NCBI RefSeq assembly: GCF_900102145.1
Contig: NZ_FNBC01000016.1
Coordinates: forward strand, 1-51,592
Source of the DNA: Thermus arciformis
GTDB lineage: Bacteria; Deinococcota; Deinococci; Deinococcales; Thermaceae
Length of the DNA: 51,592 nucleotides
Reading direction: 5' to 3'
Shown here: positions 8,714 through 34,120 of the stretch, piece after piece
Numbering within the stretch: position 1 is the stretch's first letter
Layout of the letters: each line of letters begins with the position of its first letter
Position numbers and translations under genes: made by a program
Notes under the pieces: generated by a model
The model's input: the letters and a program-made list of their open reading frames with translations, nothing else
Databases searched by the model: none
What the model was told of the DNA's origin: nothing

Positions 8714-8748
8714 AGAAACGCGCCCTCACCCGCTTGGAGGATAACTCC

Positions 8749-11440: not shown

Positions 11441-11471
11441 CCTCCACCTCCTTGGCGTTTCTTTCATGGCG

Positions 11472-11517
11472 CCTTTTTGGGCCCTCCGCTGAGGCTTCCG
11501 CCTCGGCGGGGTATTTA
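11472..11517 (+). repeat. REP-like palindrome, copy B, between protoglobin and P460 genes
   Basis: The order is CCTTTTTGGGCCC, then the stem CCGCTGAGGC / GCCTCGGCGG with loop TTCC, then GGTATTTA. The terminal TTA provides the protoglobin TAA stop on the minus strand. Within the operon it could reduce read-through from protoglobin into P460. Confidence 0.75.
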
Positions 11518-12096
11518 AAAGTCGCCTTCCTTGGCGTAGGGGTAGCTCCAGAGGGCCACCTGCAGGACCACGGCCTTGAACCAGGCCTGGTGCATTCGCT
11601 CCACCGCCTCCGGGGGGTGACCTTTCTTGGCCAGGAAAGGCCGGATTGTGGCCGTGATAGGGTAGATAAAGGCGATAAGGTAGCGCAAGGGGATGTGGGG
11701 TACGGAGGCTACCCCGTCGGTCTGGTTCTTCTTGGTCCGGTGGTGGCGCAGGCCGATCTCGTGCTGATAGGCCAGCCAGGCCTCGTCGTGGGGCCGGAAG
11801 CAGGTGTCCAAAACCCACTGGCCAAAGCGCTTCCTCACCCGCTCCAGGTACTCCGGGATGGGGTTGCCCTGGCCGTCGGTGAAGTAGTGGAGGAGATGAG
11901 GGTGGCTGCCCACAAAGCTGTACCAGAGGTCCAAAACCTCCTCCACCTGGTCTTTGAGGACCTCGCCCGCCTCTTTTAGGGCCTTTTCGTCCTCCTCTGA
12001 CCAGAGAAGGGCGGCCTTGAGCTGGTGGAGAGCCTCGAGGGAAACCGGTGAGGGTGGAAGGCCGGGGTCGCCGTAGGTATAACCGGGTAGGACCAC
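11515..12096 (-). CDS. Protoglobin
   Basis: The 193-aa single-domain globin has the N-terminal loop IPGYTYG-like LPGYTYGDPGLPPSPVS and the protoglobin heme pocket (WLAYQHEIGLRHHRTKKNQTDG, with the proximal His inside). It closely resembles archaeal protoglobin. It binds O2, CO or NO, and with P460 behind it NO handling is likely. I choose the GTG at 12096, 5 bases after AAAGGAGG; a GTG at 12102 overlaps the Shine-Dalgarno. It has a strong own promoter and operator (12107-12150). Confidence 0.88.
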   Translation of the reverse strand: MVLPGYTYGDPGLPPSPVSLEALHQLKAALLWSEEDEKALKEAGEVLKDQVEEVLDLWYSFVGSHPHLLHYFTDGQGNPIPEYLERVRKRFGQWVLDTCFRPHDEAWLAYQHEIGLRHHRTKKNQTDGVASVPHIPLRYLIAFIYPITATIRPFLAKKGHPPEAVERMHQAWFKAVVLQVALWSYPYAKEGDF

Positions 12097-12106
12097 GGTC
12101 ACCTCC

Positions 12107-16501: not shown

Positions 16502-16573
16502 CCCCTTGACCCCGGTCATGGACCGCCCCCGGCCTCGCCCCCACCCTGGGAGGTGGAGGTGAAGGATGCCGCA
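16502..16573 (+). promoter_or_regulatory. Ferredoxin leader (DR2): DnrT-type site TTGACC-CC-GGTCAT, leader hairpin and ribosome site
   Basis: The palindrome at 16506-16519 is centred 53.5 bp before the ATG. It is followed by a leader with CCCACCCTGGG and GGAGGTGGAGGTGAAGG. The leader resembles the narC leader (19447-19476). This whole segment is the intact member of the duplication with 14212-14277. Confidence 0.75.
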
Positions 16574-16921: not shown

Positions 16922-17578
16922 TCAGCGCTTGATCAGGCCCTCGAGGGCCCCGGGGTCCGGCACCTCCACCCGCCTTCCCGCAAGGCGGATGAGCCCCCGG
17001 CGGTAAAGCTCCCCCAGGTTGCGGGAGACCGCCTCGGGCACCGTGCCCAGAAGGGCGGCGAGCTCGGGGTTCGTGGGGAGGCGGAAGCCCTGCCCCTCCT
17101 CCCGAAGCCTTTCCAGCAGGAACTCGCAGAGCCTCTCCCGCACCTCGTGGAAGACCAGGCGGTCCAGGAGGTGGAGGAGTTGCCCCTGACGGCGGGCCAG
17201 GTAGCGGATCAAGGCCCGGGCCAGGGGGGGCCTTTCCTCCAGGAGCTGGAAGAAGCGGTCCTTGGGGATGGCCAGGACCTCGCTTTCCTCCAGGGCCTCG
17301 GCGCTCGCCGGGTAGGTGGGGCGGTCCAGGAAAAGGGCCACCTCGGCCAGCACCTTTCCCGGGCCCTCCACGTGGAGCACCACCTGCTTGCGCCCCTCGG
17401 GGTCCAGCTTGTAGACCTTGATGAGCCCCCTTCTCACCACAAAGAGGGCCCGCACGGGCTCCCCTTCCAGGAAGAGAAGCTCCCCTTTCCTCAGGCGCAG
17501 GGCCCTGGCCTCCCTTTCCAGGGCCTCGGCGTCCTCCGAGGGCAACTCGCGGAACAGGGCCACCTGGGTGAGCTCCAC
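16922..17578 (-). CDS. dnrT: CRP/FNR-family transcriptional activator DnrT
   Basis: The 218-aa protein has a cyclic-nucleotide-like beta-roll (about 15-125), a dimerisation helix and a C-terminal winged helix (about 155-205). The recognition helix text is TVPEAVSRNLGEL and keeps E-x2-S-R as in FNR, which reads TTGA half-sites. There is no N-terminal Cys cluster, so it is not an Fe-S oxygen sensor. It may sense NO through heme or act together with DnrS. It lies 3 bp after dnrS in one operon. In Thermus, DnrT is reported to be needed for nar, nir and nor expression. Confidence 0.88.
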   Translation of the reverse strand: MELTQVALFRELPSEDAEALEREARALRLRKGELLFLEGEPVRALFVVRRGLIKVYKLDPEGRKQVVLHVEGPGKVLAEVALFLDRPTYPASAEALEESEVLAIPKDRFFQLLEERPPLARALIRYLARRQGQLLHLLDRLVFHEVRERLCEFLLERLREEGQGFRLPTNPELAALLGTVPEAVSRNLGELYRRGLIRLAGRRVEVPDPGALEGLIKR

Positions 17579-17581
17579 GCC

Positions 17582-19402
17582 TCACCCCCTCAGGGCGGAA
17601 AGCCGCTCCCGGGCCTCTTCCAGGAGGGGCTCCAGGCGCAGGGCGCGGGCGTAGGCCTCCTTCGCCACCTCTTTGTAGCCCAAGGCCTCCGCCAGCTCCC
17701 CAAGCCGTAAAAGCCCGGAGAGGGCCCTCTCCTGCAGGTAGGCCCTTTCCGCCTCGGCCCACTCCCCGTAGGGGTCGTCCCCGAAGAGGGGGCCCTTGTA
17801 GAGCTCCAGGGCTTGGCGCAGGGTCTTGAAGGCGGAGAGGCCCTCCTCGAGGTCCGCCTTGCGCATGAGCTCCTCAAAGCGCTCAAAGTCCAGGAAACGC
17901 TTTTCCGGCAACCGCAGGTGGTAGTACTCCCCCTCCCGCTCCACCACCCCGGGAAGGGTCTTGCGCAGGTGGTAGACCAGGGCGTAGAGCTCCTGACGGG
18001 CCTTCTCCGGGGGGAGGTCGGGAAAGAAGGTCTCCAGAAGCTCGTCCACGTAGAGGGCCCGGTCCTTGTTGGCCAGCAGGAACTTGAAGAGGCGGTAGGC
18101 CCCGCTCCGGCCAAAGCTCTTGGGGGAGAGTTCCTCCCCCCGGTGGCGCACCCGGAAGCCCCCCAAGGCGTAGACCTCCAGCTCGGGCGGGGCCTCCTTG
18201 GCCGCGGTGAAGAGCAGAGGGGTGGCCAGGCGGGCGAACCACAGGGCGGGGGCGGCGGGGCCGGTGGGGGGCTTGGGGGGGCGGGCGTGGAACAGGGTGC
18301 CCACCGCCACCACCTCCCCGCCCGCCCAGAGGGGGAGGCACACCCTGGGCCGGCCCTCGGCCTCGGGGCAAGGGGGAAGGCCGTTTTTGAACCCCACCAC
18401 CTCCCCCCGCCAGGCGGGGCAGTCTTGCATGGCGCAGGGGGGGACCAGGCCCACCTCCAGCCGCTCCCCGGAGCGTCCCACCACCCGGACCCCGGTGGCC
18501 TCGGTGAAGCGCCGGAGCTGGTGCAAGAAGGTGTGCCGGGCTTCGGAGACCTCTCCCCGCCCGAGGTGCGCCCCCAGGGCGAAAAGCCCCGTCTCCCCCA
18601 GGCGGGTGAGGAGGGTGTAGAGGGTGCTGGCGAAGAGGGGACCGATGCGGGAGAGGGCCTCGAGGACCTCCTCGTGGTCCGCCTGGGGGTTGCGGGAGGC
18701 CAGGTTCAGGACCCCGATGAGGCCTTGGGGAAGCTCTAGGGGAACACAGATGTAGGTCTGGTAGCCCAGCTGCTTCACCTTCTGCCGCAGGTAGCGGGGG
18801 TCTTCCCGGAGGGTGTGGGTGACGAGGGGTTCGCGCCTCAAGGCCACGATGCCCGGGTAGCCTTCCCCCAGCTGGAACCAGGGCTTTTCCAGGAAGGCTT
18901 CCCGGTGCAGGCCCTCGTAGACGGTGAGGATCAGGTGGTGCCCCTCGGGGTCCGCCAGGAAGAGCTCCGCGGCCTCCATGGAAAGGGCCTGGCGCAGGGT
19001 CTTGAGGAAGCCCTCCAGGGCCTGGGGAAACCCCTCGGGGTGGCGGAGGAGGTGCTGGGTCAGGCGGGAGAGCTCCAGGAGGAGGTCCGGGGGTTCGGCC
19101 CGCTCGGGGTAAAGCTCCACCCGAAAGCCCTCCCCCTCCCGGTAGCCCTGGCACCGGAGGCGCCTCCCCTTGAGGAGGAGGGGGGTGCTGGCCCGGTAGG
19201 CGCCCCGCCTTAGCTCCCGCTGGACCGGGCAGCGGGCGCAGAGGGGGCGGCCAAAGGGGTCCTGCCCTTGGACGAGGGCGGCGCAGGGGAGGTTTGTCCC
19301 TTCCAGCCCCAAGGCGGGGTCAGCCTCCACAGAGGTCACCCGCCCCTCCCGGTCCAGACGCAGGCGGGCCAGGGGTTTCATCGCTTCCCAGGGTAAGCCC
19401 AT
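17582..19402 (-). CDS. dnrS: Denitrification regulator DnrS (GAF plus SARP/BTAD-type)
   Basis: The 606-aa protein has an N-terminal PAS-like segment with C-x14-C-x2-C (CAALVQGQD...LCARCP) and a GAF domain (about 105-265). A second sensor-like segment has C-x4-C-x16-C-x9-C (about 320-355). A C-terminal winged helix (VYALGGFRVRHRGEELSPKSF...) and a BTAD/TPR repeat region follow (about 415-606), as in SARP activators. It partners DnrT in control of nitrate respiration in Thermus. The ATG at 19402 is 4 bp from the operator at 19407; M8 at 19381 with GGGAAG upstream is an alternative start. Confidence 0.85.
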   Translation of the reverse strand: MGLPWEAMKPLARLRLDREGRVTSVEADPALGLEGTNLPCAALVQGQDPFGRPLCARCPVQRELRRGAYRASTPLLLKGRRLRCQGYREGEGFRVELYPERAEPPDLLLELSRLTQHLLRHPEGFPQALEGFLKTLRQALSMEAAELFLADPEGHHLILTVYEGLHREAFLEKPWFQLGEGYPGIVALRREPLVTHTLREDPRYLRQKVKQLGYQTYICVPLELPQGLIGVLNLASRNPQADHEEVLEALSRIGPLFASTLYTLLTRLGETGLFALGAHLGRGEVSEARHTFLHQLRRFTEATGVRVVGRSGERLEVGLVPPCAMQDCPAWRGEVVGFKNGLPPCPEAEGRPRVCLPLWAGGEVVAVGTLFHARPPKPPTGPAAPALWFARLATPLLFTAAKEAPPELEVYALGGFRVRHRGEELSPKSFGRSGAYRLFKFLLANKDRALYVDELLETFFPDLPPEKARQELYALVYHLRKTLPGVVEREGEYYHLRLPEKRFLDFERFEELMRKADLEEGLSAFKTLRQALELYKGPLFGDDPYGEWAEAERAYLQERALSGLLRLGELAEALGYKEVAKEAYARALRLEPLLEEARERLSALRG

Positions 19403-19406
19403 CTCT

Positions 19407-19422
19407 TAGGACAGATGTCCCA
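19407..19422. promoter_or_regulatory. dnrS-narC divergent operator TAGGACA-GA-TGTCCCA
   Basis: This 7-2-7 dyad with one mismatch is nearly identical to the nirS site. It is centred 62.5 bp before the narC ATG and 12.5 bp from the dnrS ATG. It is therefore placed to activate narC and, if bound, to block dnrS. The same GAC-N4-GTC core is present. Confidence 0.6.
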
Positions 19423-19446
19423 AGAAGGGAAAGTGGCCGCCAGGAC

Positions 19447-19476
19447 CCGCCCCCACACTGGGAGCCGGAGGTGAGG
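19447..19476 (+). promoter_or_regulatory. narC leader with small hairpin and ribosome site
   Basis: CGCCCCCACACTGGGAG, followed by GGAGGTGAGG just before the ATG, resembles the ferredoxin leader at 16535-16565. CCCA/TGGG could form a short stem directly before the Shine-Dalgarno. The shared leader may mean shared post-transcriptional control or a duplicated promoter. Confidence 0.5.
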
Positions 19477-20268
19477 ATGAAGGGTGCAAGGCTGATTCCC
19501 CTAGCCCTGGTCCTGGGGCTGGCCCTGGCCCTGGCCCAGGACGGGAAGGCCCTTTACGGCCAGCACTGCGCCAGCTGCCACGGGGCAGAGGGCCAGGGGA
19601 TTCCCGGGGCCATCCCGCCCCTGGCGGGGAACCCCAGGGTCCAGGACGAGGCCTACGTGGTGAAGGCGGTGCGGGAAGGCCTTTCCGGGCCGCTGGAGGT
19701 GGGAGGGGTGACCTACCAGGGCGTCATGCCCCCCCTGCCCCAGGTCTCCGAGGCGGAGGCCCGGGCCATCGCCCGGTACCTGCAGGGGTTGGGCGGGGCC
19801 CCGGCCCAGGCGGCCCCGGCCCCCCAGGTCCAGGGGGACCCCGCCTTGGGACGGGCCCTCTACCTGGGGCAGAAGGCCCTCCAGAACGGCGGCGCCCCCT
19901 GCCAGGCCTGCCACACCGTGGCCGGGGTGGGCTTCTTCGGGGGCGGCGCTTTGGGCAAGGACCTGACCGACGCCGCCAAGCGCCTGGGCGGGGAGGCGGG
20001 CCTCGCCGCCCTCCTGGAGAACCCCGCCTTCCCCGTGATGCGGGAGGCCTACAAGGGGAAGCCCCTGACCAAGGAGGAGGCGAGCGCCATCGCCGCCTTC
20101 CTGGCCCAGGTCTCCCAGGAGGCCCCGAGGCCTGCCTCCCTCTACCTGGGGCGCTTCCTGGTGGCGGGGCTTTTGGTTTTGGCGCTCCTGCTCCTTTACC
20201 AAGCGATCCTCTGGCAGCTTCGGCCGAGAAGCCTGGCGGAAAGGATCCGCGCCCAGCTTAGGAGGTGA
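19477..20268 (+). CDS. narC: Di-heme cytochrome c of the nitrate reductase operon
   Basis: The 263-aa protein has a signal peptide (residues 1-20, ending ALAQ) and two c-type heme sites, CASCH at 31-35 and CQACH at 142-146. A C-terminal membrane anchor ([18 protein letters not shown], about 222-239) is followed by a basic tail. In Thermus, NarC is required for nitrate respiration and passes electrons between the nitrate respiratory complexes. The ATG at 19477 follows GGAGGTGAGG. The last bases overlap or abut the start of narG, so nar genes are coupled. Confidence 0.9.
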
Positions 20269-20270
20269 AC

Positions 20271-23200
20271 ATGAGGGACTGGATCAAGGAAGTGGAAAAC
20301 CCGGCGGAGAGGAAGTGGGAGGAGTTCTACCGCAACCGCTTCCAGCACGACAAGCGGGTGCGCACCACCCACGGGGTGAACTGCACGGGGTCTTGCTCCT
20401 GGGAGGTCTTCGTCAAGGACGGGATCGTCACCTGGGAGCTCCAGGCCACGGACTACCCGAGCCTCGAGGCGGGCCTCCCCCCCTACGAGCCCCGGGGGTG
20501 CCAGCGGGGCATCAGCTTCAGCTGGTACCTCTACAGCCCCATCCGGGTGAAGTACCCCTACGCCAAGGGGGCCCTGCTGGACCTCTGGCGGGAGGCCAAG
20601 AAGCAGCATCCCGACCCCGTGGCTGCCTGGGAGGCCATCCAGAGCGATCCTCATAAGCGCAAGCGCTACCAGAAGGCCCGCGGAAAGGGAGGCTTCAGGC
20701 GGGCGAGCTGGGACGAGGTATTGGAGCTCATCGCCGCCGCCGTGGTTTCCACGGTGAAGCGCTACGGGCCGGACCGGGTCATCGGCTTTTCCCCCATCCC
20801 CGCCATGAGCCAGATCTCCTACGCCGCCGGAAGCCGCTTCCTCTCCCTTTTGGGCGGGGTGCCCATGAGCTTCTACGACTGGTACTGCGACCTGCCCAAC
20901 GCCTCGCCGGAGATCTGGGGGGAGCAGACCGACGTCCACGAGTCCGCCGACTGGTACAACGCCCGCTTCATCGCTGTCATGGGCTCCAACCTCAACATGA
21001 CCCGCACCCCCGACACCCACTTCATCTCCGAGGTGCGGCACGCTGGGGCCAAGCTCACCGTCTTCAGCCCCGATTTCTCCCAGGTGTCCAAGTACGCCGA
21101 CTGGTGGATCCCCGTCCACCCCGGCCAGGACGGGGCCTTCTGGATGGCGGTGAACCACGTCCTCCTCAAGGAGTTCTACGCCGAGCGGGAGGTGCCCTAC
21201 TTCCAGGACTACCTGAAGCGCTACACGGATAGCCCCTTCCTGGTGGAGATCAAGGACGGCCGCCCGGGGCGCTACCTGAGGGCGAACCGCCTCGCCGAGT
21301 ACGCCGAGGAGGAAAACGGCGACTTCAAGCTCCTCGTCTTTGACGAGGCCAAGGGCCCGAGGATGCCCATGGGGACCCTGGGCTTCCGCTGGCAGAAGGA
21401 GAAGGGGAAGTGGAACCTGAAGCTGGAGGACCCCAAAACGGGCGAGCCCTTGAACCCCCGGCTGAGCCTCTTCGGCGTGGAGGACGAGGTCGTCCTGGTG
21501 GAGTTTGACGACTTCGCCGCAGACCGCAGGCTCAAGCGGGGGGTGCCGGTCAAGTACGTGGCCACCAAGGACGGGGAAAGGGTGGCGGTGGCCACGGTCT
21601 TTGACCTCCTCATGGCCCAGTTCGGCGTGGGCCGGGGCCTCCCGGGGGACTACCCCGCCTCTTACGAGGACGACCTCCCCTATACCCCCGCCTGGCAGGA
21701 GAAGTGGACGGGGATCCACCGGGACACCCTCCTCGCCTACGCCCGGGCCTGGGGGGAGAACGGCCTCAAGACCAAGGGGAAGAACCTCATCATCATCGGG
21801 GCGGGCATCAACCACTGGTACCACAACAACCTCATGTACCGGGCGGGGATCGTGGCCCTCATGCTCACGGGGAGCGTGGGGGTGAACGGGGGCGGCCTCG
21901 CCCACTACGTGGGCCAGGAGAAGCTGGCCAACCAGGCCTCCTGGGGGCCCATCGCCTTCGCCACCGACTGGGGTTACCCGCCCAGGCAGCAGAACACCCC
22001 GAGCTTCCACTACGTCCACTCCGACCAGTGGCGCTACGAGCGGGGCTTCGCCGCCTACGACAAGACGGCCAAGGGGCTTTCCGACCACACCATAGACCAC
22101 CAGGTGCGGGCGGTGCGCAAGGGGTGGCTTCCCTTCTTCCCCCAGTTCAACAAGAGCCCCCTGGAGGTGGTGGCCGAGGCCGAGGCCAAGGGGGCGAAGA
22201 CCGAGGCCGAGATCGTCCAGCACGTGGTGGAGGCCCTGAAGCGGGGAGAGCTCCGTTTCGCCGTGGAGGACCCCGACGCCCCGGAGAACTGGCCCAGGGT
22301 CTGGTTCATCTGGCGGGGGAACGCCATCGGCACCAGCGCCAAGGGGCACGAGTACTTCCTCAAGCACTACCTGGGAACCCACACCAACACCGTGGCCGAG
22401 GAGGCGGCCGAGGGGCACGTGACGGAGGTGGTCTACAGGAAGCCCGCCCCTGAAGGGAAGCTGGACCTTGTGGTGGACCTCAACTTCCGCATGGACACCA
22501 GCGCCCTCTACTCGGACATCGTCCTCCCCGCCGCCACCTGGTACGAGAAAGACGACCTGAACACCACCGACCTCCACACCTTCATCAACCCCCTCCAGGC
22601 CGCCGTGCCCCCCGCCTGGGAGTCCAAGCCCGACTGGGAGATCTTCAAGGCCATCGCCAAGAAGGTCTCCGAGCTCGCCCGGGTCCACCTGCCGAGGCCT
22701 GTGAAGGACCTGGTCATGATCCCCCTCCAGCACGACACCCCTGACGAGCTCGCCCAGCCGGAGGACCGGGACTGGAAGCGGGGCGAGGTGGAGGCCATCC
22801 CCGGCAAGACCATGCCCAAGTTCCGGGTGGTGGAGCGGGACTACACCAAGCTCTACGAGAAGTTCGTCACCCTGGGCCCCACGGTGGAGAAGGTGGGCGT
22901 GGGGATGCACGGCCTCACCATCCCCGTGGAGGACTTCTACAAGGAGCTCACCGAGCGCCAGCCCCGCCTTTACGAGGGGGAGAAGCGGCCCTCCCTGGAG
23001 GAGGCCCGCCAGGTGGCCGAGGCCATCCTCTTCCTGGATCCCGTGTCCAACGGGGAGCTCGCCTACCGGGCCTTCCTGGACGAGGAGAAGAAGACCGGGG
23101 TGAAGCTTACCGACCTCGCCGAGGGCAACCGCCACGTGCGCATCTCCTTCAAGGACATCGTGGCCCAGCCCCGCCGCCAGCTCACCACCCCCACTTGGAG

Positions 23201-23861
23201 CGCCATCATCAACCACGGCCGCGCCTACAGCCCCTATACCCTAAACGTGGAGCGCTTCATCCCCTGGCGCACCCTCACGGGGAGGCAGCACTTCTACCTG
23301 GACCACCCGAACTACCTGGCCTGGGGCGAGCACCTGCCCGCCTACAAGCCCCGCCCCGAGGTCCACATGCTCCAGGAGACGGAAAGGTCGGCTAAGGAGG
23401 CCCAGGGGAAGCTCATGAACTACATCACCCCCCACGGGAAGTGGTCCATCCACTCCACTTACTCGGAGAACCACCGCATGATGACCCTCTCCCGGGGGGG
23501 CTACCCCGTGTGGCTGAACGACAAGGACGCGGCAGAACTGGGCATCCGGGACAACGACTGGGTGGAGCTTTTCAACGACAACGGGGTCTTCGTGCAAAGG
23601 GCCATCGTCTCCGCCCGAATCCCCAGGGGCACGGTCTTCGTCTACCACGCCACCGAGCGCACCGTGGGCATCCCCAAGAGCCCCCTTAGGGGCAAGCGGG
23701 CGGGGATGAACAACTCCATCACCCGCGCCCGGCTCAAGCCCGTGCTCATGTCGGGCGGCTACGCCCAGTTCACCTACGCCTTCAACTACTGGGGGCCCGT
23801 GGGGGTGAACCGGGACACCTGGGTCTACGTGCGCAAGCTGGAGGCCCCGCCGGAGTGGTAA
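20271..23861 (+). CDS. narG: Respiratory nitrate reductase alpha subunit
   Basis: The 1196-aa molybdo-bis-MGD catalytic subunit has HGVNCTGSC (H34, C38, C42) plus C77, the His-Cys3 FS0 cluster. The Mo ligand Asp is in YDWYCDLP (D207). The stretch [18 protein letters not shown] is typical of NarG. It reduces nitrate to nitrite on the cytoplasmic side. I do not see a canonical N-terminal Tat leader. The ATG at 20271 is 6 bases after GGAGG; a GTG at 20265 is in frame. Confidence 0.96.
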
Positions 23862-23872
23862 GGAGGGAACCC

Positions 23873-25408
23873 ATGAAGGTTAGAGCCCACATGTCCATGC
23901 TCTTCCACCTGGACAAGTGCATCGGCTGCCACACGTGCTCCATCGCCTGCAAGAACCTCTGGACCGACCGCAAGGGCGCGGAGTACATGTGGTGGAACAA
24001 CGTGGAGACCCGGCCCGGGGCCGGCTACCCCACGGGCTGGGAGGACCAGGAGCGCTTTAGAGGCGGCTGGGAGTACAAGGACGGCCACCTGGACCTGCGC
24101 CTCCACTCCCGGACCCAGGGGCTTTTCCGCCTCTTCTTCAACCCCGCCCTGCCCTCCCTGGACGACTACTACGAGCCCTTCACCTTCCGTTACTCCGACC
24201 TTTTCACCGCCCCTGAGGGCGAGGACCAGCCCACGGCCATCCCCGTGTCCATGATCACCGGGGAGCCCATGACCCCGGAGGCGGGCCCCAACTGGGACGA
24301 CGACCTCTCGGGCAGCCCCCTCTACGCCAAAAACGACCCCAACCTGAAGGCCCTGGACCCCGAGGTGCGGGCCCAGCTTGAGGAGATCGAGGGGGTGGTC
24401 TTCCAGTACCTCCCCCGGATCTGCAACCACTGCCTGAACCCCGCCTGCGTGGCCGCCTGCCCCTCGGGGGCCATCTACAAGCGGGCGGAGGACGGGGTGG
24501 TGCTGGTCAACGAAAACAAGTGCAAGGCCTGGCGCATGTGCGTGGCCGCCTGCCCCTACAAGAAGGTCTACTACAACTGGGCCACGGGGAAGAGCGAGAA
24601 GTGCATCCTCTGCTTCCCCCGGTTGGAGACGGGCCAGGCCCCGGCCTGCGCCCACTCCTGCGTGGGGCGCATCCGCTACATGGGGGTTTTGCTCTACGAC
24701 GCCGACCGCATCCCCGAGGCGGCCATGGTGCCGGACGAGGAGCTCGTAGAGTCCCAGCTCTCCCTCATCCTGGACCCCTTTGACCCCGAGGTGATCGCCG
24801 CCGCCAAGGCCGAGGGGATTGACGAGGGGTGGATCCAGGCCGCCCAGAAGTCCCCCATCTACAAGTTCGTGAAGGTCTGGCGGCTGGCCCTGCCCCTCCA
24901 CCCCGAGTACCGCACCCTGGCCATGATGTTCTACGTCCCACCCCTCTCCCCGGTGGTCTCCACGGTGGAGAAGGCCTTCAGGGCCAGCCAGGGGAACGGG
25001 GGCCTGGTGCGCCTGGACCTTCCGGAGACCGACCTGGACTTTGAGGTCTACGCGGCCCTGGAGAAGGCCCGCATGCCCGTAAAGTACCTCGCCAACCTCT
25101 TCGCCGCGGGCAACGAGGCGCACATCGTCCCCGTGCTCAAGAAGATGCTGGCGGTGCGCATCCTTAAGCGGCAGGAGAGCCTCGAGGGCCGCCCCACCGA
25201 GAAGGCCCTGAAGGTCCTGGCGGACGCGGGCCTCACCCTGGAGGAGGCCGAGGCCATCTACCGGCTCACCACCTTGCCCACCTTAGAGGAGCGCTTCGTG
25301 CTTCCCCCCTACCACCGGGAGATGGCCGCCGAGGTCTGGAAGGACCCCCTGGCCCACAAGGGCGAGGCGGGCCTGGGCTACATCCAGCCCCCCTTGCGGG
25401 GCGAGTAG
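23873..25408 (+). CDS. narH: Respiratory nitrate reductase beta subunit
   Basis: The 511-aa electron-transfer subunit has four Cys clusters: CIGCHTCSIAC near the N-terminus, CNHCLNPACVAACPSG, CKAWRMCVAACPYK (the Trp-containing [3Fe-4S] site) and CILCFPRLETGQAPACAHSC. It conducts electrons from NarI heme to NarG. The ATG at 23873 follows AAGGAGGGAACCC, 11 bp after narG. Confidence 0.96.
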   Translation: MKVRAHMSMLFHLDKCIGCHTCSIACKNLWTDRKGAEYMWWNNVETRPGAGYPTGWEDQERFRGGWEYKDGHLDLRLHSRTQGLFRLFFNPALPSLDDYYEPFTFRYSDLFTAPEGEDQPTAIPVSMITGEPMTPEAGPNWDDDLSGSPLYAKNDPNLKALDPEVRAQLEEIEGVVFQYLPRICNHCLNPACVAACPSGAIYKRAEDGVVLVNENKCKAWRMCVAACPYKKVYYNWATGKSEKCILCFPRLETGQAPACAHSCVGRIRYMGVLLYDADRIPEAAMVPDEELVESQLSLILDPFDPEVIAAAKAEGIDEGWIQAAQKSPIYKFVKVWRLALPLHPEYRTLAMMFYVPPLSPVVSTVEKAFRASQGNGGLVRLDLPETDLDFEVYAALEKARMPVKYLANLFAAGNEAHIVPVLKKMLAVRILKRQESLEGRPTEKALKVLADAGLTLEEAEAIYRLTTLPTLEERFVLPPYHREMAAEVWKDPLAHKGEAGLGYIQPPLRGE

Positions 25409-25417
25409 GAGGGCGCC

Positions 25418-25933
25418 ATGCCGGGAAACCCTAACCTCCTGGAAACCCTGGCCCTGGCCCTGGACTACCCCATGCCGGGCCGCTTAGAGGAGCTCTGGCG
25501 GCGCTGGATTGGGTGCCCGAGGGGCCCCGCCAAGCAGAAGCTGGAGCGCTTCTTGCGCCAGGTGGAGGACCTCTCCTTAGGGGAGTGGGAGGAGCTCTAC
25601 ACCCGCACCCTGGACCTCACCCCCACCACCGCCCCCTACGTGGGCTTCGCGGTGTACGGGGAGAGCTACCAGCGGGGGGAGCTCCTCGCCGCTTTGGTGC
25701 GGGCCTTCCGGGAGCTTGAGCTTGACCCGGGGAGCGAGCTTCCCGACCACCTGGCGAACGTCCTCCGCTACCTGGCCCGGGTGGAGGAGCCCCTGCCGGA
25801 GCTTGCGGAGATCCTTCCCCGGGCCCTTTCCGAGATGCACAAGACCCTCAAGACCCTGGACGCCAAGAACCCCTACCTCCTGATTTTGGAAGCCGTCCAG
25901 GAGGCCTTGCAGGGGGACTTGGCAAGGAGGTGA
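25418..25933 (+). CDS. narJ: Nitrate reductase assembly chaperone
   Basis: The 171-aa helical protein of the NarJ/NarW (TorD-like) family has the LALDYPMPGRLEELW opening and the central LYTRTLDLTPTTAPYVGFAVYGESYQRGELLAAL, matching the NarJ signature (Y-x-x-x-F-[DE]-x-x-P region). It helps molybdenum cofactor insertion into NarG and membrane attachment of NarGH. It lies between narH and narI, as in other nar operons. Confidence 0.9.
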   Translation: MPGNPNLLETLALALDYPMPGRLEELWRRWIGCPRGPAKQKLERFLRQVEDLSLGEWEELYTRTLDLTPTTAPYVGFAVYGESYQRGELLAALVRAFRELELDPGSELPDHLANVLRYLARVEEPLPELAEILPRALSEMHKTLKTLDAKNPYLLILEAVQEALQGDLARR

Positions 25934-25936
25934 AGG

Positions 25937-26614
25937 ATGAACTGGAACGCCCTTCTCTTCGCCGTCTTCCCCTACATCGCCCTCACCCTGGCGGTGGCGG
26001 TGACCGCCTACCGCATGGTCTACAGGCCCTTCTCCGTCTCGGCCCAGTCCAGCCAGCTCTTGGAGCAGAAGCGCCTCTTCTTCGGCTCCACCGCCATGCA
26101 CTGGGGCCTGGTGATTGTCCTCCTTGGGCACCTTTTGGCGCTGCTTCTGCCCAAGGGGCTCCTCCTCTGGAACGCCGTGCCCCTCAGGCTTTACCTCTTG
26201 GAGATCACCGGGCTTGGCCTCGGGCTTTGGGCCCTCTTCGGCACCTACGTCCTCCTCGCCCGGCGCATCTCCGTGGCCCGGGTGCGGGCGGCCTCCACCC
26301 CCATGGACTACCTGGTCCTGGTGGTGGTCTTTGTCTCCGCCCTCACCGGGGTTCTCACCGCGGTCCTCTACCGCTACGGCTCCTTCTGGTTCCCCGCGGT
26401 GATGACCCCCTACCTCTGGTCCGTCCTCACCCTGAACCCCAGGCCCGAGCTTCTCCAGGACCTCCCCTTCTGGACTAAGCTCCACGTCTTCAACTTCTGG
26501 CTCTTCCTGGCCCTCTTCCCCTTCTCCCGCCTGGTCCACATCGTCACCGTGCCCCTGGGGTACGTGGTGCGGCCCTGGCAGATTGTCGTCTGGGTGCGCA
26601 AGCTGGCGAGGTGA
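25937..26614 (+). CDS. narI: Nitrate reductase gamma subunit (di-heme b)
   Basis: The 225-aa membrane protein has five predicted helices. His-bearing helices include LFFGSTAMHWGLVIVLLGH near residues 48-66 and the C-terminal KLHVFNFWLFLALFPFSRLVH, which supply the two b hemes. It oxidises menaquinol on the outer face and anchors NarGH. AAGGAGGTGAAGG precedes the ATG, 3 bp after narJ. Confidence 0.94.
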   Translation: MNWNALLFAVFPYIALTLAVAVTAYRMVYRPFSVSAQSSQLLEQKRLFFGSTAMHWGLVIVLLGHLLALLLPKGLLLWNAVPLRLYLLEITGLGLGLWALFGTYVLLARRISVARVRAASTPMDYLVLVVVFVSALTGVLTAVLYRYGSFWFPAVMTPYLWSVLTLNPRPELLQDLPFWTKLHVFNFWLFLALFPFSRLVHIVTVPLGYVVRPWQIVVWVRKLAR

Positions 26615-26617
26615 GCC

Positions 26618-27949
26618 ATGGTCCACGATCCTGCCCAACTGGACAAGGAGCGTCCCGACCGCTTAAGGGTGCTCTGGCTTTCCACCTTGGCCTTCACCCT
26701 CATGTTCGCCGCTTGGCTCATGTTCGGCGTGCTGGGGGTGCCCATCCGCAAGGAGTTCGGCCTCTCCGACGTGCAGCTTTCCTGGATTTCCGCCCTGGCC
26801 ATCCTCAATGGCTCCCTTTGGCGCCTTCTGGCGGGCGTTCTCGCCGACCGCTACGGGGGGCGGCTGGTCTTCACCCTCATGCTCTTCTTCACCGCCATTC
26901 CCGCCTACCTGGTTTCCCGGGCGGGGAGCTACGAGGAACTCCTCCTCTACGCCTTCCTGGTGGGCTTTGCCGGGAACAGCTTCAGCGTGGGCATCGCCTG
27001 GAACTCCGCCTGGTTCCCCAAGGACCAGCAGGGCTTTGCCCTGGGGGTCTTCGGGGCGGGCAACGTGGGGGCCAGCGTCACCAAGTTCATCGGCCCGGCC
27101 CTCATCGCCAGCGTTCCCGCCTCGGGGTATTTGGGGGGGCTCATTCCCGGGGGGTGGCGCTTCATCCCCTTCCTCTACGCGGTGCTCCTGGTGCTGATGG
27201 GCTTCGTCCTGTGGTTCGGCACCCCCCAGAAGGACAAGCGCCCGGGGCAGGGAAGGCCCTTCCTGGACATGCTAAGGCCCCTCCGCCACATACGGGTGTG
27301 GCGCTTCAGCCTCTACTACGTGGTGGTCTTTGGGGCCTACGTGGCCCTTAGCGCCTGGCTTCCTAAATACTACGTGGACGTCTTCGGCCTGCCCCTGCAC
27401 GAGGCGGCCCTGCTCACCGCCCTTTTCATCTTCCCCGCGAGCCTCCTTAGGCCGGTGGGGGGCTACCTCTCTGACCGCTTCGGGGCGCGGCGCATCATGT
27501 ACTGGACCTTCGGCATCATCCTCCTGGCCTCGGGGGTGCTGATGATGCCCGAAGGGCACATCGTCCTCTACACCAAGCAAGGGGCCAAGGAGGTGATGCA
27601 GTTCACCATGAGCGTGGGGCTCTTCACCCTCCTGGTCTTCCTCATCGGCGTGGGGATGGGGATCGGCAAGGCCGCGGTCTACAAGCACATCCCTACCTAC
27701 TTCCCCCAGGACGTGGGGGCGGTGGGCGGCCTCGTGGGGATGCTGGGGGCCTTGGGGGGCTTCTTCCTCCCGCCCCTTTTCGCCTACGCCCAGGCCTGGA
27801 CCGGCCTGCCCCAGATGACCTTCTTCGTCCTCTTCCTCCTCACCGCCATCAGCTTCCTCTGGATGCACCTCACCGTCCTAAAGCTCTTGCAGCAGGAGGC
27901 CCAGCACCTCAAGAACGACTTTGAGCTGAAAGGAGACCGTCCATGCTGA
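26618..27949 (+). CDS. narK1: Nitrate/nitrite transporter of the MFS NNP family, NarK1
   Basis: This 443-aa 12-helix MFS transporter has the nitrate signature GIAWNSAWFPKDQQGFALG followed by VFGAGNVGASVT (about residues 124-155). A second Gly-rich signature is GVGMGIGKAAVYKHIPTYFP in the second half. Tandem NarK pairs usually combine a nitrate/proton importer with a nitrate/nitrite antiporter. It overlaps narK2 by 7 bases. Confidence 0.92.
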   Translation: MVHDPAQLDKERPDRLRVLWLSTLAFTLMFAAWLMFGVLGVPIRKEFGLSDVQLSWISALAILNGSLWRLLAGVLADRYGGRLVFTLMLFFTAIPAYLVSRAGSYEELLLYAFLVGFAGNSFSVGIAWNSAWFPKDQQGFALGVFGAGNVGASVTKFIGPALIASVPASGYLGGLIPGGWRFIPFLYAVLLVLMGFVLWFGTPQKDKRPGQGRPFLDMLRPLRHIRVWRFSLYYVVVFGAYVALSAWLPKYYVDVFGLPLHEAALLTALFIFPASLLRPVGGYLSDRFGARRIMYWTFGIILLASGVLMMPEGHIVLYTKQGAKEVMQFTMSVGLFTLLVFLIGVGMGIGKAAVYKHIPTYFPQDVGAVGGLVGMLGALGGFFLPPLFAYAQAWTGLPQMTFFVLFLLTAISFLWMHLTVLKLLQQEAQHLKNDFELKGDRPC

Positions 27950-29274
27950 AGTCCGCCAAGGGGACCTGGATTACGGATTGGAACCCCGAGGACCCCAAGC
28001 GCTGGGACCCCGCCCTGGCCTGGCGCACCCTCTGGATCACCACCTTCAACCTCACCCTGGCCTTCATCACCTGGTTTGTGGTGAGCGCCCTGGTGGTGCG
28101 CCTGCCCAAGGTGGGGTTTGAGCTCTCCACCACCCAGCTCTTCTGGCTCACGGCCATGCCGGGACTGGCCGGGGGCACCCTGCGCATCATCTGGACCTTC
28201 TTGCCCCCCATCTTGGGCACCCGCCACCTGGTCACCTTTTCCACCCTCCTCCTTCTCATCCCGCTTCTGGGCTGGGGCTTCGCCGTGCAGAACACCGGGA
28301 CCCCTTACTGGGTTCTCCTGCTCCTGGCCTTCTTGGCGGGCATCGGGGGAGGGAACTTCTCGGGGTTCATGCCCTCCACCAGCTACTTCTTCCCCAAGCG
28401 CCTCCAGGGGACGGCCTTGGGCCTGCAGGCGGGGATCGGCAACTTCGGGGTTTCCATCGTCCAGTTCGTGACCCCCTGGGTCATCGGCTTCGCCCTCTTC
28501 GGCTCCCTTTTGGGCGGGCCCCAGACCTTTACCCCCAAGCCTGGGGTGTCCCAGCCCATCTGGCTCCAGAACGCCACCTTCCTCTGGGTGCCCTTGGTCC
28601 TCTTGGGGGCGCTTGTGGCCTGGGTCTACCTGAGGAGCGTGCCCATCCGGGCCAACTTCCGGGAGCAGTTTGACATCTTCCGCGACAAACACACCTGGAT
28701 CATGACCAGCCTTTACATCATGACCTTCGGGTCCTTTTCCGGGTTCTCCGCCATCTTCCCCCTCCTCATCCGCGAGGTCTACGGGAAGTTTGAGGGGGCT
28801 CCCGATCCCTTGCGGTACGCCTTCCTGGGGCCTTTGGTGGGTTCCTTGGCCCGGGTGATCGCGGGGCCCATCTCCGACCGCCTGGGCGGGGCCATCGTCA
28901 CCCAGGTTTCCGCCATCGGCATCTTCCTCTCCGCCCTTCTGGTCACCCTCTACACCCGGCCCACCTCCTTGGACCAGTTCCCCATGTTCGTGGTGGCCAT
29001 GCTCCTGGTCTTCTTCTTCAGCGGGGTGGGGAACGCCAGCACCTTCAAGCAGATGCCCATGATCTTCCCGCCCCGCCAGGCGGGGGGGGTCATCGGCTGG
29101 ACCGCGGCCATCGCCGCCTACGGGCCCTTCCTCTTCTCCACCCTGGCCGCCTACACCCAGCGGGCCACGGGGGGCTTCACCGCTTTCTTCTATGGGCTCA
29201 TGGTCTTCTACGCCCTCAACCTCTTCCTGAACTGGTACTACTACGCCCGTAAGGGAGCGGAGAAGCCCTGCTAA
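27943..29274 (+). CDS. narK2: Nitrate/nitrite transporter of the MFS NNP family, NarK2
   Basis: The second 443-aa NNP transporter has the signatures GIGGGNFSGFMPSTSYFFPK and GIGNFGVSIVQFVTPW in the first half. SGVGNASTFKQMPMIFPPRQ in the second half corresponds to the other signature. Sequence differs clearly from narK1, so the two probably differ in transport mode. The TAA stop lies inside a REP-like palindrome (29272-29316), the likely 3' end of the nar operon. Confidence 0.92.
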   Translation: MLKSAKGTWITDWNPEDPKRWDPALAWRTLWITTFNLTLAFITWFVVSALVVRLPKVGFELSTTQLFWLTAMPGLAGGTLRIIWTFLPPILGTRHLVTFSTLLLLIPLLGWGFAVQNTGTPYWVLLLLAFLAGIGGGNFSGFMPSTSYFFPKRLQGTALGLQAGIGNFGVSIVQFVTPWVIGFALFGSLLGGPQTFTPKPGVSQPIWLQNATFLWVPLVLLGALVAWVYLRSVPIRANFREQFDIFRDKHTWIMTSLYIMTFGSFSGFSAIFPLLIREVYGKFEGAPDPLRYAFLGPLVGSLARVIAGPISDRLGGAIVTQVSAIGIFLSALLVTLYTRPTSLDQFPMFVVAMLLVFFFSGVGNASTFKQMPMIFPPRQAGGVIGWTAAIAAYGPFLFSTLAAYTQRATGGFTAFFYGLMVFYALNLFLNWYYYARKGAEKPC

Positions 29275-29316: not shown

Positions 29317-29360
29317 AGGTGCCCATGCCCCGGGTGGGGAAGCCCCGCCCGGGGCTCTCC

Positions 29361-29374
29361 TTGACCCAGGTCAT
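29361..29374. promoter_or_regulatory. DnrT-type operator TTGACC-CA-GGTCAT upstream of the accessory operon
   Basis: This 14-bp dyad is centred 45.5 bp before the DUF2249 ATG at 29413. It is preceded by a small hairpin GCCCCG-CC-CGGGGC (29342-29355). It indicates that the accessory operon is a separate transcription unit co-regulated with nir and nor. Confidence 0.65.
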
Positions 29375-29412
29375 GGCCCAAGGCCCCCGGGCTTAGGGAG
29401 ACTGAGGGCGCT

Positions 29413-29631
29413 ATGGAGCTGGACGTGCGCGCGATCCCCCCTAGGGAAAGGCACCCCAAGATCTTCGGCGTCTTTGACGCCCTGGCCCCCGGCGAGAGCT
29501 TCGTCCTCGTCAACGACCACGACCCCAAGCCCCTCTACTACCAGCTTTTGGCCGAGCGCCCGGGCCAGGTGGACTGGACCTATTTGGAGGAGGGCCCGGA
29601 GGTATGGCGGGTGCGGATCGGGAAGAAGTAG
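29413..29631 (+). CDS. Single-domain DUF2249 protein
   Basis: The 72-aa protein is one complete DUF2249 domain: LDVRAIPPRERHPKIFGVFD, GESFVLVNDHDPKPLYYQL and a terminal WRVRIGK strand. The invariant HDP of the family is present. DUF2249 proteins are common beside nor, nir and hemerythrin genes and resemble the TusA fold. Their role is unsettled, with sulfur or metal delivery or NO response suggested. It is the first gene of a seven-gene accessory operon. Confidence 0.85.
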   Translation: MELDVRAIPPRERHPKIFGVFDALAPGESFVLVNDHDPKPLYYQLLAERPGQVDWTYLEEGPEVWRVRIGKK

Positions 29632-29642
29632 TCCGCCCCGAG

Positions 29643-30416
29643 ATGAAGGTGGCGGAGGTCCTAAAGCGCTGGCCGCACCTCCTCGAGGTCCTGGTGGCGG
29701 CGAGCCCCGCCTTCCAAAAGCTCAAAAACCCCCTCCTCCGCCGCACCATGCCCAACTTGGTCACCGTGGCCCAGGCGGCGAGGATCGGGGGGCTTACGCC
29801 GGAAGAACTCGTGGCAAGGCTCAACCGGGCCCTGGGGGTGGAGGCCAGGCTCCCCGTGGCGGGGGCGGAGGAGAGCCTCCTCGGTGCCCCGCCCCCTCCC
29901 TGGCTTTCCGCCCCCGTGGGCTTCCACCTGGACGTGCGGCCCATCCTGGAAGGAGGCGGGGAGCCCTTCCCGAACATCATGGCCGCCGCCAAGGAGGTGG
30001 CTCCAGGAGAGCGGCTCGTGCTGGAGGTGCTCTTTGAGCCCGTCCCCCTCTACCGGGTCCTGGCCAAGCAGGGCTTTCTCGCCTGGTGCGAGAAGGTGGG
30101 GGAGCGGCACTACCGGGCCCACTTCTACCGCCAGGGGGCGGGGGAAGGGGGGAGGGGTCCTGCGGTCCCCCTCACCGAGGCGGACTGGGAGGACTATCAG
30201 GCCGAGGTCTTCATTGAGGAGAACCTGGAGCCTCCTTTACCCATGATGCGGGTCCTCGAGGCCCTGGCCGCCCTCAAACCGGGGGAGAGGCTTCTCGTCC
30301 ACCACGTGCGCAGGCCCATCCACCTCCTCGCCCGCCTGGAGGAGGAGGGGCACGCCTACGCCCTCAAGGACCTCGGCCCCGGGAGGGTGGAGATCCTCAT
30401 CCGCAAGGGGGGCTAG
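29643..30416 (+). CDS. DUF1858 plus two DUF2249 domains
   Basis: The 257-aa three-domain protein has an N-terminal DUF1858 (MKVAEVLKRWPHLLEVLV...LRRTMPNLVTVAQAARI, about 1-65). A first DUF2249 follows (FHLDVRPILEGGGEPFPNIM, about 95-170), then a second (PPLPMMRVLEALAALKPGERLLVHHVRRP, about 185-257). The second has HHVRRP rather than HDP. The start is uncertain: ATG 29643 has weak ribosome signals, while ATG 29604, overlapping the previous gene, has GGAGG immediately before it. Function unknown; context points to NO metabolism. Confidence 0.75.
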   Translation: MKVAEVLKRWPHLLEVLVAASPAFQKLKNPLLRRTMPNLVTVAQAARIGGLTPEELVARLNRALGVEARLPVAGAEESLLGAPPPPWLSAPVGFHLDVRPILEGGGEPFPNIMAAAKEVAPGERLVLEVLFEPVPLYRVLAKQGFLAWCEKVGERHYRAHFYRQGAGEGGRGPAVPLTEADWEDYQAEVFIEENLEPPLPMMRVLEALAALKPGERLLVHHVRRPIHLLARLEEEGHAYALKDLGPGRVEILIRKGG

Positions 30417-30850
30417 TGGGCTTCTGGCACTACCTCTTCGTGCGGGCGGCCCTCCTTTACCTGGTCTACACCGCCCTCCTCGGTACCCTCTTCCACCTCT
30501 TCCCCTCCCTGGTGGGGCCTTTCCGCCCAAGCCACGTCCACGCCGGGCTCGTGGGCTTCTTCCTGCAGATGGTCATGGGGGTGGCCTACTGGATGATGCC
30601 GAGGCCCGGGGGGCTCCGGCAGGACCGGCTGGAAGGGCTCACCTTCGTCCTCCTGAACGCCGGGCTCCTCCTGCGGCTTTTCCTGGAGCCCTGGGTGCTC
30701 TCGGGTCACGCCGGCCTTCGCCCCTGGCTTGGGCTTTCCGGGGGGCTTCAGCTCGCCGCCACCCTGGTCTTCGCCTACGCCATGACGAAGCGGGTGGTCA
30801 CGGCGGATATGCTGAGGAAAATGCGCGAGGAGCGGGAAAGGAGGGGTTAG
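30416..30850 (+). CDS. Small heme-copper-oxidase subunit I-like membrane protein
   Basis: This 144-aa protein has about four membrane helices with a SHVHAGLVGFFLQMVMGVAYWMMPR segment, a paralogue of the gene at 2995-3372 (HAHMQLLGFVSLMIYGVAYHALPR). The shared H-x-H-x2-L-G-F pattern resembles subunit I of cbb3 oxidase and NorB. It is too short to be catalytic. The GTG start abuts the preceding stop. A heme or NO binding accessory role is possible. Confidence 0.65.
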   Translation: MGFWHYLFVRAALLYLVYTALLGTLFHLFPSLVGPFRPSHVHAGLVGFFLQMVMGVAYWMMPRPGGLRQDRLEGLTFVLLNAGLLLRLFLEPWVLSGHAGLRPWLGLSGGLQLAATLVFAYAMTKRVVTADMLRKMREERERRG

Positions 30851-30852
30851 CG

Positions 30853-31692
30853 GTGGAAGCGCTTTTGGCCGAGGAGACCCTGGTGCTGGACCTGCCCCCT
30901 TTGCCCGAGGAGGTCTTCCGGGACCTCCTCGCCTTCGGGGGCCTGCGGGAAGAGGACAAGCGGGCCATGCGCCTGGACGCGGAGCGGCTCCTGGAGGGGG
31001 CGGCTTCCTTCGTGGCCGGGGTCTACGACCACCTGAGCCGCCACCCGGGGACGGCCAAGGCCCTGGGCTGGGAGGGGCGGGTGCCCGAGGAGGAGCTTTA
31101 CCTGAGGCGGGCCTTTTTCTCCGCCTGGCTCGCCCGCACCCTCGGCGTGGACACCTCGGCGGAGTTCGCCCGGGAGGTCTACCGGGCGGGGCTCTGGCAC
31201 GGGGGGCTCGGGCCCAAGCGGGCCCACATCCCCCCGGAGTACGTGGGCCTTTCCTTCGCCATGGTGGGGCGGTACGTGGCGGAACGGGTGCGGGACGCCC
31301 GCCCCTGGCTCGTCTACCTCTCGGCCCAGGAGGAGGTGATGCGGAAGGGGTTTGACGCCGCCCTGGCCCTGAAGGAGGGAGGGGCCGAGGTGCGCTTCCA
31401 GGCCTTGGGCCTCGCCTACTCGGCCCAGCCCGAGCCCCTCCTCTTGCGGGCAAAGACCGTGGGGGAGGCCTTGAGGAAGACTTTCGCCGTGAACCCGGCC
31501 CTGCGGGACCTGGCCCTGGAGGCCGTCCCTTCCGAGGAGGAGGTGGGGCTCTGGCTTGAGCCCAAAACCCTCTACCGCCTGAGGCCCCGCTGGGCCGTGC
31601 TCCTCGAGGGCCGGGACGTCCGCTACCTTCAGGGCCTCGCCACCCCCCTCAAGTCCAGGGAGCGCCTCACCCTCCTCCCCCCGGGGCGCTAG
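30853..31692 (+). CDS. Protoglobin fused to a MoaD/ThiS-like domain
   Basis: This 279-aa protein has two parts. Residues ~1-178 look like a protoglobin / globin-sensor fold ([56 protein letters not shown]). Residues ~183-279 look like the ubiquitin-like MoaD/ThiS fold ([30 protein letters not shown], then [31 protein letters not shown]). The final Gly-Gly needed for sulfur transfer is absent (ends PPGR). It lies 3 bp after the previous gene. It may link heme gas sensing to a protein partner of the MoaD type. Family calls are from motif reading only. Confidence 0.65.
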
Positions 31693-31694
31693 CC

Positions 31695-31708
31695 ATGACC
31701 CAGGTCAT
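31695..31708. promoter_or_regulatory. DnrT-type operator ATGACC-CA-GGTCAT inside the accessory operon
   Basis: This perfect 6-2-6 dyad is centred exactly 41.5 bp before the GTG at 31743. Class II activation would thus start the mRNA at the start codon itself. It lies 2 bp after the stop of the protoglobin-MoaD gene. Confidence 0.65.
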
Positions 31709-31742
31709 GGCGATTCCCGATCGGTTTCCTCAGGATTAGGCC

Positions 31743-32894
31743 GTGATCGTCACGGCCCAGAACCGCGCGATCCCCTTAAGCCTCCCCGCAGGCTTCTTCT
31801 TCCTGGGGGAGGCCTTCTTCTTAGCCTTCGCCCTCCTCTTCGCCCTCCACCCGGAGGCCCTCGCCTCTCCCCGGCACCCCCTGGGCCTGGCCCTGGCCCA
31901 CCTCTTCCTCCTGGGCTTCGGGGTGGGGGTCCTCCTAGGGGCCATGCACCAGCTCGTGCCCGTGGTCCTCGAGGCGCCCCTTTACCGGCAGGAGCTCGGC
32001 TACCCCGTGATGCTCCTCTGGGCCCTGGGGGTGGGGCTCCTCGCCCTGGGCTTCGCCTGGGCTCCGGCCCTCGTCCCCTGGGGCGGGGCTTTGGCCCTTG
32101 CGGCCCTTTTCCTCTTCGCCCTTCACATGCTCCTCACCTTCCTAAAGGCCCCCCGCTGGAACCGGGTGGCCACGGCCTTGGCCTGGGTGGTCTTCTACCT
32201 CGCCCTCACCCCCCTCCTCGGCCTCTTCCAGGCCCTTTCCCAGCGCTATGGCTTCTACGACCCGGAAAGGCTCACCTGGCACCTCCTTGCCGGGCTCGGC
32301 GGGGTCTTCCTCCTTTCCATCGTGGGGGTGGGGTACAAGCTGGTCTCCATGTTCACCCTCACCCACGGGGTGGACGAGAGCGCCCTGGGGCTTTTCCTCT
32401 GGGCCGCCAACCTGGGGCTTTGGGGGCTCGCCTTTGGGGAGGGGCTCGGCTACCTCCTGCTCCTCCTCGCCGCTGGCCTCGCCCTCTACGACGCCTACCG
32501 CATCCTGAAAAACCGCATGAAGCGGGCTTTGGACATCGGGGTGCGGCACTACCTGGCGGGGCTTTTCTTCCTCGGCCTCGCCCTCCTTGCCCTGCCCTTA
32601 CGCCCCGTGGCCGCCGCCCTCTGGTTCGCCCTGGGCTTCGTGGGCCTGGTGGTCACGGGGATGCTCTACAAGGTCCTGCCCTTCCTGGTCTGGACCCACC
32701 GCTACGCCAAGCGGGCGGGCAAGGAGAAGGTGCCCCTCCTCAAGGAGATGCTCCCCGAGGGGGCGAGCTACCTGGCGGGGGGGCTTTTGGCCTTCGGGGC
32801 GCTTCTTTCCCCCTGGTTTCCCTGGGCGGCCTGGGCCTACGCCTTGGGCGCCCTTCCCCACCTTTACGCCCTTTGGGAGGTGATGCGGCGATGA
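31743..32894 (+). CDS. NnrS-like / heme-copper-like polytopic membrane protein
   Basis: This 383-aa protein has about 11-12 membrane helices. [31 protein letters not shown] (about 40-70) matches the His-rich helix seen in the two small heme-copper-like proteins here. [17 protein letters not shown] and the C-terminal [14 protein letters not shown] add His residues. It resembles NnrS, a heme- and copper-containing protein that protects against NO. The GTG start has no Shine-Dalgarno, in line with leaderless expression from the site at 31695. Confidence 0.6.
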
Positions 32895-33202
32895 CGGCGA
32901 AAAACCCGCTGGAAGCGCAGGCTTGGGCGCTTTTGGAGTCGGTCTACGACCCGGAGCTGGGCCTGGACGTGGTCAACCTGGGCCTGGTCTACGAGCTGGT
33001 GGTGGAGCCGCCCCGGGCCTACGTGCGCATGACCCTCACCACCCCGGGCTGCCCCCTGCACGACAGCATGGGGGACGCGGTGCGCCAGGCCCTCTCCCGG
33101 CTTCCCGGGGTGGAGGAGGTGGAGGTGGAGGTCACCTTTGAGCCCCCCTGGACCCCGGCGCGGCTTTCCGAGAAGGCCCGGAGGCTTCTCGGGTGGGGGT
33201 GA
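32891..33202 (+). CDS. DUF59 / MIP18-family Fe-S assembly protein
   Basis: The 103-aa protein has the DUF59 core [22 protein letters not shown] (about 18-39) and the conserved [13 protein letters not shown] loop with its Cys (about 53-65), like SufT and PaaD. Such proteins help insert Fe-S clusters into targets. The start overlaps the NnrS-like stop by 4 bases (ATGA). It may mature the Fe-S proteins of this island. Confidence 0.85.
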
Positions 33203-33804: not shown

Positions 33805-34019
33805 CCTAGGGCCTCCCAGGCCTCCCCGGTGGGCTCCGTGGGGTCCTCGTAGCGGAGGAGGGTGCCCAAAAGTTTCTCCCTGGGGTCCTCCTCCCGGTAG
33901 GGGCGCACCTCCAGGACGGGGCGGCCCCGGTGGGTGAGGAGGAGGGGTTCCCCCGTGGCTTCCACCCGGCGGAGGAGTTCCAGAGCGTGGGCCTTGAAGT
34001 AGGACTTGGAGACCTTCAT
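33801..34019 (-). CDS. Phd/YefM-type antitoxin
   Basis: The 72-aa protein begins MKVSKSYFKAHALELLRRVE, followed by ATGEPLLLTHRGRPVLEVRPY. This is the Phd/YefM fold, and the C-terminal part binds the toxin. The ATG at 34019 starts the conserved domain; an in-frame ATG at 34031 adds MTLV. A 14-bp dyad covers both start codons, so autorepression at the start is possible. Confidence 0.82.
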   Translation of the reverse strand: MKVSKSYFKAHALELLRRVEATGEPLLLTHRGRPVLEVRPYREEDPREKLLGTLLRYEDPTEPTGEAWEALG

Positions 34020-34031
34020 GACCAGGGTCAT
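34018..34031. promoter_or_regulatory. Palindrome ATGACC-AG-GGTCAT over the antitoxin start
   Basis: This perfect 6-2-6 dyad has the same arms as the DnrT-type sites, but it lies on the start codon rather than 41-46 bp before it. It may be a Phd operator, or a DnrT site acting as a repressor. Confidence 0.5.
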
Positions 34032-34120
34032 TGTATCTGGTCATGAAGGAATCCGGCAAGAAGCTCCGGGAGGTGCAAAAGAGGGCGCTCAGGCCTCAGG
34101 TCTGGGGGCCAGGACCCCTC

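Follow-up and report, generated by a model that had tools for sequence, protein, structure and literature searches.

What does a globin joined to a MoaD-like domain without its Gly-Gly tail do among the genes of denitrification? The question is raised by an open reading frame at positions 30853-31692 (+) of the window, by which we mean the whole 51,592-nt stretch of Thermus arciformis DNA analysed here (contig NZ_FNBC01000016.1). The window represents a denitrification island of Thermus, in which genes named by homology and position encode an Rrf2/NsrR-type regulator (3906-4460), NorC-like and NorB proteins (4539-6642), NirS (7042-8667), a NirJ-like protein (8734-9876), dnrT/dnrS (16922-19402) and nar (19294-29274). 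The reading frame starts with GTG, contains no internal stop and encodes 279 amino acids ending in LLPPGR; its NCBI product name is merely 'protoglobin domain-containing protein'. The gene belongs to the regulated unit of DrpA and DrpB and encodes the sole recognisable globin there, and we know of no mechanism for nitrate sensing via these two proteins in Thermus.

Domain composition of the fusion protein

As judged from profile and alignment evidence, the open reading frame encodes a protoglobin-type heme domain followed by a SAMP1/MoaD-type beta-grasp domain. Median dN/dS values were 0.13 for the globin part and 0.22 for the MoaD-like part; both parts are therefore under purifying selection, and a chance open reading frame was ruled out by this range (0.13-0.22). 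The protein of the window contains no Cys and is therefore expected to perform no thiol or Fe-S chemistry.

The N-terminal domain (residues 22-150, 30916-31302, +) matched the Pfam Protoglobin family (PF11563) with an E value of 2.9e-10 and 40.8 bits against a cut-off of 25, and the match recurred in all seven members of a diverse fusion alignment, which bears out the protoglobin-type domain proposed in the initial annotation. Tyr58 (codon 31024-31026, +) corresponds to the distal Tyr45 of the globin-coupled sensor AfGcHK (5ohe), and His116 (codon 31198-31200, +) to its proximal heme ligand His99; both are invariant in 30 sequences. The alignment between AfGcHK and the fusion globin is weak (E 0.55); Tyr45 and His99 are the heme residues of AfGcHK. 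We infer from these residues that the fusion globin probably binds heme and a gas, NO and/or O2. Globin-coupled sensors and protoglobins thus share with the fusion a globin domain of the sensor type, the distal Tyr, the proximal His and a second domain behind the globin, but in the sensors this second domain is a kinase, cyclase or chemotaxis output, whereas here it is a MoaD-like beta-grasp. A stand-alone second protoglobin and an adjoining cytochrome P460 gene are also present in the island, at 11515-12102 (-) and 10967-11818 (-); this protoglobin matches the Pfam family at 2e-36 and is weakly similar to the fusion globin (28% over 90 aa).

AlphaFold2 run on the fusion sequence alone gave a model of no use (pLDDT 38), and a run with eight close fusion sequences gave a poor one (mean pLDDT 43) that we used solely to back the topology of the C-terminal part. 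In that part (block means 29-67) the order of elements is beta-beta-alpha-beta-beta-beta, which agrees at low confidence with the ubiquitin-like fold that had been anticipated; the globin half showed no confident fold in either model.

A MoaD-like domain without the Gly-Gly tail

The assignment of the C-terminal domain (residues 178-279, 31384-31689, +) is carried by comparison of families. In hhalign the fused domain aligned with the Thermus MoaD family, whose core ends in Gly-Gly, at 98.5% probability (E 3e-15). ThiS was matched by seven of seven members of the diverse fusion alignment (best 1.9e-5); the protein of the window itself scored below the cut-offs, at 0.088 for ThiS and 4e-4 for NCBIfam SAMP1 (NF041918, curated cut-off). 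Profile searches with the domain matched 1v8c, 2m19 and 2l52, the nearest solved structure being the T. thermophilus MoaD-related 1v8c, and Foldseek on the C-terminal part of the low-confidence model gave SAMP1 (2l52) as the best match, together with 2m19 and 1v8c. The MoaD/ThiS-type fold of the initial annotation is consistent with all of these comparisons. The fusion has in common with 1v8c, SAMP1 and HVO_2177 (2m19) the beta-grasp and a GRDVRYLxGLxTxL...PP signature, the first part of which is strongly retained from MoaD. It differs from them by the lack of Gly-Gly, by an insertion of 16 residues (227-242, 31531-31578, +) that appears in hhalign as a gap and is absent from Thermus MoaD, by an altered first beta strand from which the MoaD Tyr (Tyr7) and the FRDL motif are lost, and by its position behind a globin.

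The missing Gly-Gly is not peculiar to the window: each of the 30 relatives in the alignment, which come from two families, ends in the same LPPGR (31675-31689, +). Four codons for Gly278 and four for Arg279 occur among the relatives; since the codons vary while the residues stay, the residues appear to be kept by selection. A frameshift or a truncated Gly-Gly was ruled out, as PPGR is kept in two families and the other frames just downstream hold no GG. The host genome also encodes an ordinary MoaD-related protein (C43), in which an extension follows PPVAGG. For the fused domain, which has no C-terminal Gly-Gly, a sulfur-carrier role in the known sense is excluded. Beta-grasp families without a C-terminal Gly exist, and interactions have been proposed as their role (PMC1779556); they resemble the fusion in having a ubiquitin-like fold without a conserved C-terminal Gly, but they are other sequence families, whereas the domain of the fusion clearly comes from the MoaD/SAMP1 branch. 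The fusion clearly illustrates how a MoaD domain can be put to new use once the tail that carries sulfur is gone.

The fixed tail might still conceal a modifier if the terminal Arg were trimmed, exposing Gly278 for E1-like activation and then conjugation or thiolation. Some eukaryotic modifiers end in one Gly, in some cases after trimming (Atg12, Ufm1), and Gly278-Arg279 is invariant in the 30 sequences despite the codon variation. However, every Thermus MoaD examined uses VAGG, while the fusion has one Gly and a tail two residues shorter, and with about 30% of the alignment columns invariant, the two constant end residues are no more than mildly surprising and the constancy of LPPGR is not to be over-weighted. 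We regard a hidden modifier as very unlikely. The reading we prefer is that the MoaD/SAMP1-derived domain would have lost the capacity for activation and sulfur carriage and would have been reused for protein docking.

The fusion is the fourth gene of the drp unit

The fusion gene closes a tight unit that consists of drpA (DUF2249; 29413-29631, +), drpB (DUF1858 and two DUF2249 domains by Pfam; 29604-30416, +), a gene for a small COX1-like membrane protein with an HVH motif ('cox144'; 30416-30850, +) and the fusion itself. Successive genes overlap by 28 bp and then by 1 bp, and the last two are 2 bp apart. The first gene was identified by position and homology to the published operon (PMC6282519) and the NAR1 record, and the same paper supports drpB. 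In front of the unit, at 29360-29376 (+), lies a CTTGACCCAGGTCATGG box that has no mismatch to the published NsrR-Th site and stops 36 bp short of the drpA ATG; it is an exact copy of CTTGACCNNGGTCATGG, a site described for NsrR-Th and overlapping with the footprint of DnrT (PMC5748679). Matches to this box with at most two mismatches number 17 in the window against 0.27 expected by chance, a count in which most sites are palindromic and hence scored on both strands. The box upstream of drpA is also perfect in the other Thermus loci examined; in the second family that carries the fusion (f4), there is no such box at the fusion.

DnrT is required for the production of DrpA and DrpB (PMC6282519). 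Together with the perfect box, this gives good support to the DnrT-type control put forward in the initial annotation. The four genes overlap or abut, no further box occurs inside the unit, and its sole terminator-like match lies within the membrane-protein gene and is below the shuffle expectation. With this arrangement the fusion may be co-transcribed from the drp promoter. During denitrification DnrT, possibly also the NO-responsive NsrR-Th, would switch on the drp promoter, and the fusion would be made along with DrpA, DrpB and the small HVH membrane protein.

Downstream of the fusion a second box, CATGACCCAGGTCATGG, with one mismatch (31694-31710, +), separates it from the next unit, and a related box stands at this place in Thermus relatives. 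The next unit begins with a gene for a 383-aa multi-helix membrane protein (31743-32894, +; Pfam match none), followed by one for a FeS_assembly_P (MIP18-like) protein (32891-33202, +). The 383-aa protein, with its own NsrR/DnrT-type box ahead, is found together with drpAB in several Deinococcota. Further boxes of this type were seen at 16505-16521, downstream of dnrT (perfect), and at 34016-34033, upstream of a LacI-type regulator gene region (two mismatches).

The same operon has been studied in T. thermophilus NAR1, with drpA and drpB directly upstream and a DnrT-dependent promoter, and was described as bicistronic (PMC6282519). In that strain (NZ_LR027520.1, L093:4632-5606) an insertion sequence lies inside the third gene, for the small membrane protein, near its start, and the fusion is therefore cut off from the drp promoter; strain JL-18 has an uninterrupted set of the four genes. 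The operon was published as two genes, and the insertion is probably the reason why the fusion gene was overlooked.

Distribution of the fusion

Among 390 genomes of 285 genera searched, with a sample of genomes covering the groups outside Deinococcota, the fusion was confined to Thermus and f4. It is present in 20 of 27 Thermus genomes and in 12 of 14 genomes of f4, several of which are incomplete. The f4 copies are 52-59% identical to the fusion, and all intact Thermus copies end in LPPGR. Plasmid matches were to Thermus throughout, and the viral contigs yielded none. A contig scan found the fusion in Thermus alone; it used short exact peptide patterns, with which a wider spread is possible. 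These results indicate that the fusion is a conserved combination, and not a one-off or a frameshift. Our literature search found no paper describing a globin-MoaD fusion and, as far as that search reached, the architecture is apparently undescribed. On plasmid pTP143 of T. parvatiensis (L039:5001-5809) the fusion is split into two reading frames, and several nearby nar/drp genes also appear broken; a decaying island or an error-prone assembly is possible.

Co-occurring genes and the possible role of the fusion

In each of the 41 genomes from Thermus and f4, the fusion was present or absent along with the HVH membrane protein, both being found in 32 (Fisher P 2.9e-9, relatedness ignored); in one of the 32 (G003) the membrane-protein gene was matched just in pieces. 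The two genes adjoin in Thermus and in genus g13, where the fusion comes directly after. In genus g14 (L054:2543-5093, L056:1304-3857) the fusion lies away from the membrane protein, between an upstream ferredoxin gene and hemC/fur. Since many fusion-free genomes encode the membrane protein as well, this protein does not need the fusion. The HVH motif (H40-V41-H42) is kept in at least 97% of 38 homologues, and the protein has a weak COX1 match; the motif recalls the heme-ligand helix of heme-copper oxidases.

The initial annotation had suggested that a docking module reports gas binding to a MoaB/MoeB/MoaE-like partner or to molybdenum cofactor supply for NarG. Docking without sulfur carriage remains plausible after the present comparisons; the link to MoaB, MoeB or MoaE is weak, given the loss of the strand-1 Tyr and the FRDL motif. 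In its explicit form, the pseudo-MoaD would bind MoaE or MoeB without sulfur and tune the cofactor supply of NarG by gas binding. This would fit the retained GRDVRYLxGLxTxL region, the inhibition of molybdopterin synthase by attachment of SAMP1 to MoaE in Haloferax (PMC4443979) and the additional part of DrpA and DrpB in the maturation of nitrate reductase activity (PMC6282519). The gene distribution argues otherwise: narG is absent from 9 of the 32 Thermus and f4 fusion genomes, namely from two Thermus genomes that are about 99-100% complete (G009, G021) and from 7 of the 12 in f4 (narG in 5; several f4 genomes are incomplete). Conversely, narG is present in one fusion-free genome of this set, and Meiothermus-like genomes lack the fusion although they carry both narG and the HVH membrane protein. 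With the fusion in narG-less genomes and missing from many narG-bearing ones, supply of molybdenum to NarG was demoted as the main role, and we consider a cofactor decoy improbable.

The distribution of NO metabolism bears on another explanation, in which the globin binds or oxidises NO in denitrification and the beta-grasp domain merely brings it into place, for instance beside a reductant such as ferredoxin, with no signalling. NirS and/or NorB were found in 28 of 32 fusion genomes versus 1 of 9 fusion-free ones (Thermus and f4), the box upstream is a perfect NO-regulator site, and the g14 fusion has a ferredoxin gene upstream; NO dioxygenation is described as common among globins (PMC3820574). 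However, the fusion has no reductase domain, little oxygen would be present while the operon is on, and four Thermus genomes contain the fusion without NirS or NorB, the only NO sources surveyed. An NO-handling enzyme or buffer is accordingly a doubtful account.

A gas-binding globin with a MoaD/SAMP1-derived docking domain is the interpretation we favour, tentatively and at somewhat short of even chances, with the HVH membrane protein and/or the membrane-bound DrpB as the most likely partner. The soluble heme globin would bind NO and/or O2, the beta-grasp domain would dock on the membrane partner, and gas binding at the heme would alter respiration or its regulation. It is conceivable, on a more speculative footing, that the fusion represents a new globin-coupled class, in which the output of a gas-binding globin is a dead MoaD/ubiquitin-like domain whose PPGR tail is fixed; by docking on DrpB or on a membrane protein of the heme-copper-oxidase kind, this domain would relay the NO/O2 state to anaerobic respiration.

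Several variants of the locus were also observed. The HVH membrane protein occurs across Deinococcota, near drpAB, YwiC-like and dnrT-like genes in several genomes. The g14 fusion lies outside any denitrification cluster visible in the stretch around it. G009 (L072) has kept drpAB, the membrane protein and the fusion, with narG, NirS and NorB not found in this genome, and the same locus is seen in T. composti (L033).
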